Positions 10,908 through 12,615 of a stretch of 13,445 nucleotides of DNA are shown one piece after another; position 1 is the stretch's first letter, and the number at the start of each line of letters is the position of its first letter. The DNA comes from Spirochaetaceae bacterium. GTDB taxonomy: Bacteria; Spirochaetota; Spirochaetia; Treponematales; Breznakiellaceae. A program made the translations under genes and the position numbers. Location: positions 1-13,445 of the forward strand of contig JAITKD010000224.1 in assembly GCA_031278575.1 (NCBI GenBank), in the 5' to 3' direction. Below the pieces are notes generated by a model, which saw nothing but the letters and a program-made list of their open reading frames with translations, did not search any database and was not told where the DNA came from.

Positions 10908-10922
10908 GGAACATTTTGTTCC
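10908..10922. promoter_or_regulatory. Dyad directly upstream of the clpC -35 box (operator candidate)
   Basis: A perfect 6-bp inverted repeat, GGAACA-TTT-TGTTCC, lies one base upstream of the -35 hexamer, where an activator or repressor could contact polymerase. It has GAAC-N5-GTTC and not the GAAC-N4-GTTC of Gram-positive LexA boxes, so it is not called an SOS box. Confidence 0.45.
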
Positions 10923-10969
10923 ATCAACAGTTTTACCTTTACCAGGATTTTCCCGGTAATAGGGGCGCA

Positions 10970-10991
10970 TTTCCGGCGCAAGCGCCGGAAA
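10970..10991. repeat. REP-like GC-rich palindrome
   Basis: The arms TTTCCGGCGC and GCGCCGGAAA are exact complements with two bases between them. With only two bases it is more likely a cruciform or protein target than a simple RNA loop. It resembles the GC-rich palindromes that accompany RAYT genes in other bacteria. Confidence 0.65.
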
Positions 10992-11016
10992 CCGGGCTTT
11001 CCGGGGCTCCGCTCCG

Positions 11017-11039
11017 GTCCCGGCGCCGTGCGCCGGGAC
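11017..11039. repeat. REP-like GC-rich hairpin
   Basis: The arms GTCCCGGCGC and GCGCCGGGAC are exact complements around a three-base loop. The core CCGGCGC is shared with the palindrome 26 bases to the left. No T-tract follows on either strand, so it is not a standard terminator. Confidence 0.65.
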
Positions 11040-11182
11040 TGCTTCGCACCCCTCCAATCCCTTGCGCTTTTCGTACCCGGCGGCTTTTTCGGCAATTATA
11101 GGCCGTTAAACGTAAAATTGCCGTTGTTCCATAAATAATCTAACCTAAAAAGGCCGGATTTCAAAATAAAATTCTAACCCTA

Positions 11183-11528
11183 ATGAGCCTCCGCGGAACA
11201 AGCTCGAAGCAAACTTGCTTGCCGGTATCTTAAACCTTGCGTTGGTCTGAACGGAGGCTCGTTCGATAGGAAGTTTATTAGGGCATAGCCCTTTTTGGGA
11301 TAATACCCCGTCGAACCTCCGGTTCGCGCTTGCCCTAACCGTGACCCGCTAAAAATTTTACGGGGTATTTTTAGGAAAACGCTGATTAACTTGACGCTCA
11401 TCGCGTTTCCCTAATGTATTTGCTCATTTCATTGCGCAAATACAACGTTAAAGTAGCGCCGATTTATTCTCGATTGAATAAATCAGTGCTTCCTTAGCGG
11501 AATTTGTTCGGAATTTGAAATTTCCGAA
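11183..11528. repeat. Chain of inverted repeats (structured RNA or REP cluster candidate)
   Basis: Seven inverted repeats cover about 345 bases. GAGCCTCCG (11185-11193) pairs with CGGAGGCTC (11252-11260). TTAGGGCA (11278) pairs with TGCCCTAA (11331-11338). AATACCCCGT (11302-11311) pairs with ACGGGGTATT (11360-11369), and inside that lies CGAACC-TCC-GGTTCG (11312-11326). TTAGGAAAACGC (11371-11382) pairs with GCGTTTCCCTAA (11403-11414) with one mismatch. TGTATTTGC (11415) pairs with GCAAATACA (ending 11444). GATTTATTC (11461) pairs with GAATAAATC (ending 11484). A near-palindrome starts TTCGGAA at 11507 and ends TTCCGAA at 11528. Some pairings (11278/11331 and 11302/11360) are mutually exclusive or pseudoknotted. 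Confidence 0.65.
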
Positions 11529-11572
11529 TGTTTTACTAAAGCAAAATCGCGGATCAATCCCATATATTATCC

Positions 11573-12040
11573 ATGAGACAATTACGCATACTCAAACAAG
11601 GGGTATGGTACGAAATCCGTACCCGTATCAACAACCGGGAACCCATCTTCAGCCGGTATAAGGCCCTGGCGCTGTTCGCCCGGGTGTTCCGGCAGACGAA
11701 ACTCCGGTTCGTTTTCGAGGTTCGCGGGCTGTGTCTTGCGGACGACTGGCTAACGTTTTATATCAAGCCGGCGGATGGGCTGGAACTTCCGGTTATCATG
11801 CAGTGGCTGAAGCAGGTGTTCGCCCAGCGGTACAACCGCCTGGACGGCCGGATCGGGCATATCTGGGGGGACCGGTATGGGTCGTGGATACTGGAGGGGG
11901 AGCCGCCGCCGCCGGAGGAGGAGAGTGGAACGGGGCGGGGGGATTCGGACGCTGGGGTCAGACCCCGGTATGGGGAAACGGCGATCCAATCCGCTTTTCC
12001 CCCCATTTTCCCCTTCCCCGCCACCCCCGCGCCCGGATAA
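11573..12040 (+). CDS. RAYT-like (IS200/Y1-transposase-related) protein lacking catalytic motifs
   Basis: A 155-residue protein whose first 107 residues follow the layout of REP-associated tyrosine transposases. WYEIRTRINNREPIF matches the usual YHVxxRGNxRxxIF start. LPVIMQWLK, then RYNRLDGRIGHIWGDRYGS (86-104), match the usual LxxxMxxLKxxYxxxFNxxxGRxGHLWQxRYxS. Where functional members have MPNHVHLL, this protein reads LADDWLTF (55-62), so both metal-binding histidines of the HUH motif are replaced (D58, L60). At the likely tyrosine position it has F83. The fold is therefore probably kept without nicking activity. The C-terminal part (108-155) is proline- and glycine-rich and contains AGVRPR encoded by a perfect DNA palindrome. 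There is no clear ribosome-binding site, so start confidence is moderate. It follows a hairpin field, as RAYT genes often do. Confidence 0.75.
   Translation: MRQLRILKQGVWYEIRTRINNREPIFSRYKALALFARVFRQTKLRFVFEVRGLCLADDWLTFYIKPADGLELPVIMQWLKQVFAQRYNRLDGRIGHIWGDRYGSWILEGEPPPPEEESGTGRGDSDAGVRPRYGETAIQSAFPPIFPFPATPAPG
11954..11966. repeat. GGGGTC-A-GACCCC palindrome inside the RAYT-like gene
   Basis: A perfect 6-bp inverted repeat with one central base, read in frame as GVRP. From memory, the same palindrome is common near IS200/RAYT-type genes in several phyla. A second, imperfect inverted repeat follows (GGGGAAA near 11972 against TTTTCCCC near 12000), so the 3' end of the gene is itself REP-like DNA. 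Confidence 0.7.
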
Positions 12041-12170
12041 GCGGCGCTAAATAAGCGACGCCAATCCGCCCGGGGTTCCGTATAAACCTTCTTTTTCACC
12101 CCAGGCCGAAAACTCCCCGGGGAAAGGTCTGTCCTAAAACTGGAATATTTAAAAACATAAGGAATTTTAT

Positions 12171-12586
12171 ATGAAAACCACAAAAACAACAACCTATTTC
12201 GTATTCGGTCTCTTCCTGGCCCTCGTAGGGTCGCCTGTTTTAATCCGAATAGTACCATTTCTTCCCCCGTCAGGGAATCCGGTACCGATATCCCGGCCTA
12301 TATCGCCGGCTTTAACGATATCGACCCCTTTACCGTAACCGTTGCCGTGGGCGGCTCCTCCCGAAGTATCGCCGGGCTGGAACGAGATAAGCTGAGGCCC
12401 CATACCGGGGTCCGCAACTTCGCCCAGCTTATGGTTCTGGATACGGCCGGCAAAAAACTCATGGGCTTCGCCGAAATCCACCAGACCGATACGATTGAGA
12501 TTGACGCCCTGCCCCTGGGTAAGACCTACGCCTTCTTCCTCCTGATGGGCCATTGGAAGGGCCAAGTGCAGCAGGACGGAGCGTGA
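12171..12586 (+). pseudogene. Small lipoprotein gene with an apparent one-base frameshift
   Basis: An ATG at 12171 behind AAGGA opens a typical export signal (MKTTKTTTYFVFGLFLALVG), but this frame then leaves the coding signal and stops at about 12335. From about 12230 another frame carries on smoothly: VACFNPNSTISSPVRE, then DPFTVTVAVGGSSRSIAGL, ending QVQQDGA and TGA at 12584-12586. One additional G in the GGG at 12228-12230 would join the two as LVGVAC plus mature chain, placing a lipobox-like cysteine exactly after the signal. The rejoined protein would be about 138 residues. I recognise no function; the mature part looks like a small extracellular beta-domain. It could be a real inactivating deletion, a sequencing error or, less likely, programmed frameshifting. 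Its start lies 130 bases after the RAYT-like gene. Confidence 0.65.
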
Positions 12587-12615
12587 AGCGATCCTTTTAG
12601 CCCCGGCTTCGGGCC

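Follow-up and report, generated by a model that had tools for sequence, protein, structure and literature searches.

Background

Nuclease-dead TnpB-like repressors are transposon proteins that were kept after the loss of catalysis; they act as host regulators and are not known as repeats of the copy number reported here. Among the Y1 transposases, proteins of class 2 (RAYTs, or TnpA_REP) have the tyrosine motif Y---NP and typically a low genomic copy number, with the exception of subclass 2.3; in-frame REPs are reported for subclass 2.4, and the copies of class 1 TnpA are highly conserved within a genome, according to the cited portions of a 2018 census (PMC6006769). In E. coli TnpA_REP, N119 is the third metal ligand and Y115F is a catalytic mutant, as given in excerpts of two papers (PMC6006769, PMC8266576). 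Sequences without the HuH and Tyr motifs were put aside as probably non-functional, in the wording of the census excerpt (PMC6006769).

Some uncultured spirochetes have tens or more copies per genome of a repeated element with a RAYT gene that lacks both motifs (the dead type, as opposed to intact relatives). One copy lies in the window, by which the whole stretch of 13,445 nucleotides that was analysed is meant. The element is like RAYTs in its Y1_Tnp core, conserved N, W/R block, and palindromes nearby and in frame, and unlike them in that the dead clade is without HuH and Y---NP, has tens of copies or more, and has a tail under little constraint; with 32 long matches, G000 (the assembly from which the window comes, 59.7% complete and 1.14% contaminated) departs from the low copy number of class 2. 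Like IS200/IS605 (class 1 TnpA), this is a multi-copy mobile element with one small ORF, an empty site and subterminal hairpins, but the dead clade has neither HuH nor Y---Q, some copies have imperfect inverted ends, and the copies are strongly diverged at synonymous sites. REPINs and MITEs likewise form intragenomic sequence populations, with inverted ends (here in some copies) and presumed catalysis in trans, but the element described here bears a gene under purifying selection. With the TnpB-like repressors it shares the retention of a transposon protein without catalysis, in a different protein family.

Among the papers listed in literature searches, none was seen to describe the dead RAYT-like clade. 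Loss of the motifs is shared by 240 of the 240 homologues inspected among the matches listed, yet, in the four genomes tested, the gene is constrained at the codon level in every nearest pair, in a class that the cited part of the survey took as non-functional (PMC6006769), and the clade poses the question of whether a transposase without catalysis can sustain a mobile element. Its members also offer naturally occurring variants with which the nucleic-acid-binding core of RAYTs could be mapped.

Loss of both catalytic motifs from a RAYT-derived protein

The ORF in the window (Table 1) is open over 155 codons, as originally predicted, and its assignment as RAYT-like was borne out by a match to Pfam Y1_Tnp (PF01797; 25.5 bits, cut-off 23), a domain also matched at E <= 0.01 by 84 of the 100 members of set A1; the NCBIfam RAYT model REP_Tyr_transpos gave only 28.7 bits, below its equivalog cut-off of 80. 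No credible relative was found by sequence search of the PDB (best E 1.3), and defence models run on two proteins gave no match.

Table 1. Coordinates of the element and its gene in the window
Feature	Position	Strand	Basis
5' end of the element (CTAACCGTGACCCGCTAAAAATTTT); some other copies have its inverted counterpart on their 3' side	11335..11359	+	
Small separate palindromic repeat nested in the 5' region of the element, with ends GGAAAACGCTGATT / AATCAGTGCTTCC	11374..11493	.	
5' subterminal hairpin CGGAATTT-GA-AATTTCCG	11509..11526	+	
ORF for a RAYT-derived protein without HUH or Tyr motif (155 aa + stop)	11573..12040	+	
Constrained core, residues 1 to ~110, retaining R5, Y13, F48, F83, N88 and GHxWGDRYxS	11573..11902	+	
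Place of HUH, occupied by W59-L60-T61	11747-11755	+	Alignment with motif-keeping relatives
Replacement C-terminal tail, little protein-level constraint in G000	11903..12037	+	
In-frame palindrome TGGGGTCAGACCCC inside the tail, tandem in some other copies	11953-11966	+	
3' end: short hairpin CCCC...GGGG, then AAAGGTCTGTCC	12099..12134	+	

Homologues were sought at E <= 1e-3 among 5.8 billion proteins, with the window protein (1270 hits) and with a member from another genus (250 hits), and the best 120 of each were inspected, giving the 240 homologues. The reference for the motif columns was a set of 37 intact relatives (36 with HxH, one with HIN). The original prediction was right that HUH had been lost, but it placed the motif at D58-W59-L60, one residue away from the true columns. 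HxH occurs at these columns in none of the 240 homologues among the matches listed (HxH is found elsewhere in five, and one has H at 59 alone), and the prediction that homologues share the change is thus upheld. The proposal that F83 is the mutated nucleophile is ruled out, as most of the 37 intact relatives likewise have F at this position (F 92%, Y 5%, S 3%). The tyrosine motif follows the WGxR block in intact relatives (Y---NP in 34 of 37, Y---N in 36 of 37), and its predicted loss was confirmed: among the matches listed, neither Y---NP nor Y---Q occurs in any of the 240 dead-type homologues, and Y---N alone is found in the tail of seven. In the window protein Y---NP is absent because the C-terminus has been replaced. 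An intact HUH and tyrosine elsewhere in the protein, the outcome named as contrary to the prediction, was not found at the sequence level.

Residues common to the dead clade and intact relatives are R5, Y13, F48, P66, L72, I75, M76, F83 and N88, and further G95, H96, W98, G99, R101 and S104, whereas W12, T17, P24, F26, R51, Q81, R86, R93 and Y102 are near-invariant in the dead clade and rare in intact relatives. Retention of N88 and GHxWGxRxxS, together with the new near-invariant R51, R86 and R93, would fit a function in nucleic-acid binding. The near-invariant residues also speak for a protein that is still a transposase, with a new active site (candidates include E23, E49, H96 and Y102) in place of HUH-Tyr, as does a multi-copy lifestyle resembling that of the G030 (92) and G026 (28) families, in which nine inspected loci keep HUH, and as does the fact that no intact RAYT was seen in G016 or G024. 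Such a replacement is nevertheless improbable, since H96 and R101 are common to intact relatives and so are not new residues, and since HUH enzymes are thought, in the cited portion of one source, to require the metal site and the tyrosine (PMC8266576).

Distribution of the dead clade

In a tree of sequences chosen from the fetched loci (104 columns, quick search, HUH columns left out), one branch with SH-aLRT support of 100 divides 20 dead from 37 intact sequences, and these data would fit one single loss of the motif in the dead clade. The nearest named records are metagenome-assembled genomes (MAGs) of Spirochaetaceae bacterium or Treponema sp. (e.g., Cd354_bin11, Nm470_bin53, Pcl387_bin163), which we take to be of termite-gut origin. 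Protein searches of family genomes indicate that the dead protein is conserved between genera. At E <= 1e-3, a match is present in 30 of 58 genomes searched (the window's own included), and intact RAYTs are among these matches. At E <= 1e-30, a threshold that the best intact relative (4.3e-26) does not reach and that excludes short pieces like those in G001 and G003, matches are present in 32 of 195 family genomes (own included), spanning 15 of 56 genera; these genomes were counted by threshold and not by one-by-one inspection of HUH. The remaining 163 of 195 have no match at E <= 1e-30, including G001 and G003, two of the four same-genus relatives, which have short weak matches only. The copy number of the dead type ranges from one to at least 66 per genome, the latter being the number scored out of 196 candidates in G016.

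Multi-copy RAYT-type families of the intact kind were encountered in G030 (92 matches) and G026 (28 matches), which are many for class-2 RAYTs. HUH is kept in nine of nine inspected loci (L083, L148, L154, L159; L079, L146, L151, L155, L160), and dN/dS is also low in these two families (4 and 5 copies compared).

Copies in the genome of the window and selection on the protein

The dead RAYT-like gene of the window is not single but one of many copies in its own genome. A protein search of G000 gave 59 matches, of which 32 span at least residues 7-89 (L011 and L028 may be one locus, judging by the G004 counterpart) and 27 of these 32 extend from the N-terminus to residue 130 or beyond. Many copies lie at contig ends, so the true numbers may be higher. 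The search reads through stops, and an in-frame stop interrupts only one of the 32 long matches, at codon 136 (counted in its own frame), in the tail; the alternative of homologues that are mostly frameshifted was not what was found.

The pairwise ratio of non-synonymous to synonymous rates among G000 copies is 0.20 (30 copies, L028 included). Omega was also calculated along nearest pairs that have no copy in common, with four-fold sites serving for the neutral expectation. L028, which lies at an error-rich contig end, and copies with <85 core codons were left out. Omega is 0.128 in G000 (15 pairs, each 0.07-0.23), 0.163 in G004 (14 pairs), 0.242 in G016 (15 pairs) and 0.297 in G013 (3 pairs), the highest single pair being 0.40. 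The core is under purifying selection in all nearest pairs compared, in four genomes, and the original prediction that the protein is under selection is well supported. Core frames were chosen stop to stop, and a copy with a core stop would therefore escape this set. Differences at the three codon positions in G000 (L028 left out) are 0.088/0.048/0.216 in the core and 0.175/0.124/0.164 in the tail, compared with about 0.26 in the untranslated regions, and those in the G016 tail are 0.266/0.241/0.323, a slight constraint; the dead core is therefore kept, and the tail much less so.

Plain decay is ruled out by the nearest-pair omega and the stop counts. A related idea is that the element is a passive non-autonomous repeat, its ORF a relic with a frame merely undecayed so far. 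Bacteria commonly have miniature repeats that are mobilised in trans, and the barely constrained tail is as such a relic would have it, but this reading is highly improbable given an omega of 0.128 in the nearest pairs of G000, along which about 29.5 core stops are expected without selection, a single stop (in the tail) among 32 long matches, and conservation of the dead protein between genera. That the copies compared are kept intact by selection suggests that the protein is useful without cutting DNA. Selection on each copy could instead reflect a role in the host, or exchange with constrained copies.

Architecture of the element

The element is about 0.7 kb long, with the dead RAYT-like ORF as its conserved gene; in an alignment of G000 copies (L026 and L028 left out on the 5' side), conservation extends from ~100 bases before the ATG to ~110 after the stop. 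Of the outer sequences, GCTAAACGTGACCCGCA is the inverse complement of TGCGGGTCACGTTTAGC. Ends are recognisable on both sides in seven of 30 loci scanned (L010, L013, L014, L017, L019, L022 and L023), many of the 30 being cut by contig ends. On the 3' side of the window copy and of L024, the scan detected no counterpart. By eye, GTTAAACGTGA / TCACGTTTAAC or close forms were recognised in two of 18 displayed G016 copies (L108 and L194), and G016 copies have a GGTCTG motif at the place corresponding to AAAGGTCTGTCC.

Subterminal hairpins are present in many copies. L028 was left out and the placements were those that paired best; on this basis, 31 to 55 of 57 copies accommodate any given one of the eight pairs in the 5' hairpin, some of these placements being poor, and for the 3' hairpin, which has four pairs, the figure is 36 to 39 of 40 copies. 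The script placed no 5' hairpin in nine of 66 copies, though L005 and L009 show one by eye. Covariation gives the hairpins modest support. Several copies also have palindromes inserted without loss of frame, around residue 27 and in the tail. The hairpins named at the outset are all present in the window, at 10970-10991, 11017-11039, 11313-11325 and 11953-11966, the last inside the tail of the ORF. The palindromic repeat nested in the 5' region of the window copy also adjoins copies L016, L018, L020, L029 and L093.

An autonomous element with the same ends was sought by searching G000 and G004 for the end pattern with up to 3 mismatches, and none was recognised. The 38 places found (23 + 15) comprise 28 that adjoin long copies, one that adjoins a short fragment, and nine others that were fetched and proved to be copies truncated at contig ends, pieces of the ends, or the nested repeat; comparison of these nine with the window, their genes being unannotated, recognised no other transposase.

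Mobility and probable exchange between copies

Flanks of 17 G000 sites were compared with the four same-genus genomes. In two cases (L012 and L024) both flanks were found on one contig, and both sites are free of the element; for the other 15, the flanks are on different contigs, or one or none was found. At L024, 726 bp in G000 corresponds to 18 bp in G004, with flanks 95-96% identical, and no target-site duplication is evident at this one clean junction. At L012, about 1.1 kb in G000, an insert that includes other repeats, corresponds to none in G004. For the reciprocal set of 16 G004 sites (the last with a short left flank only), flanks were joined on one contig of G000, G001, G002 or G003 in none. 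In G004, G002 and G001, the sequences that flank L025 on the left and L021 on the right are close neighbours (~0.5 kb apart in G004) with no element detected, an arrangement that suggests insertion followed by recombination between copies.

Copies cluster largely, but not wholly, by genome. For four pairs of G000 and G004 copies that share a site or one flank, dS of the ORF is 0.31-0.49, compared with 0.135-0.155 in three flanking genes (the upstream flank comparison of L011/L181 paired unrelated frames and was left out). The simplest reading of the raised ORF dS would be exchange between copies within each genome, although a raised mutation rate may be an alternative source. The suggestion that the gene is domesticated, in the sense of a settled single host gene, is not supported, because it moves as part of an element that has many copies and, in a sister species, an empty site, and because its copies appear to exchange sequence.

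At three sites (L021/L186, L017/L139 and L011/L181), two species each have a copy, and both copies are open over the part that was read. Together with the strong purifying selection in nearest pairs, these would agree with a function at the level of the host, in which dispersed copies give the cell a DNA- or RNA-binding protein (a regulator or a chromosome-structuring factor) and mobility is incidental. We consider this unlikely, given the patchy distribution (no match at E <= 1e-30 in 163 of 195 family genomes, even in G001 and G003 of the same genus) and a copy number that varies from 1 to at least 66 where, we reason, one gene would suffice.

Candidate sources of catalysis and the proposed function of the protein

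G002 has one intact RAYT with HUH and Y---NP, and G013 and G027 have two each (one of those in G027 cut by a contig end), whereas no class-2 RAYT was found at the thresholds used in the incomplete assemblies of G016 and G024. IS200-class TnpA is open in G003 and G016; G004 has one with a stop and a fragment, and G000 has a fragment. All these assemblies are incomplete, and absence of an intact RAYT or TnpA from any of them is therefore weak evidence. One element copy in G000 adjoins a fragment of a Y1 transposase with HVH (DHVHF) at a contig end, with stops in the match (G000:C113:5558-5755).

Co-occurrence of the dead type with intact RAYTs (G002, G013, G027) and with an open IS200-class TnpA (G016), and retention of the conserved WGxR block, are compatible with an antagonist or copy-number regulator, a dead protein that occupies the ends of elements or REPs and blocks active Y1 transposases. 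This is rather unlikely, since G016, with one of the largest families, has no intact RAYT that was seen, and by our reasoning tens of copies are unnecessary for a repressor.

We tentatively prefer, at a little under even chances, a RAYT core without catalysis that would bind nucleic acid and aid the persistence or spread of its own element, with catalysis from another enzyme. The gene codes for a core of the TnpA_REP type that has lost both catalytic motifs and would be kept as a nucleic-acid-binding protein. It belongs to a mobile element of ~0.7 kb, many copies of which have subterminal hairpins and some of which have imperfect inverted ends. The protein may bind in cis the hairpin ends of its own element, or the RNA of that element, and such binding in cis would favour persistence or spread of that particular copy. 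Strand cleavage would be provided by another enzyme, possibly an IS200-class TnpA, an intact RAYT or host recombination. It is possible, though doubtful, that this amounts to a selfish element driven by a transposase-derived protein without transposase chemistry, each copy being selected for binding of the ends or for an unrecognised chemistry, and that the clade of dead RAYTs has retained this way of life across many species.

Surroundings of the element in the window

The element region (window 10922-12582) coincides with a break in synteny, between neighbours named by eye as clpA-like and dCMP deaminase-like. These two genes are on different contigs in G001, G002 and G004, so that no empty site is readable at the window site. 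A second repeat, which starts with MKTTKTTTYFVFG... at 12171 and resembles a frameshifted small gene, is found in the interval 12142-12590, and stretches similar to it occur in three places in G004 (C67, C125 and C147).
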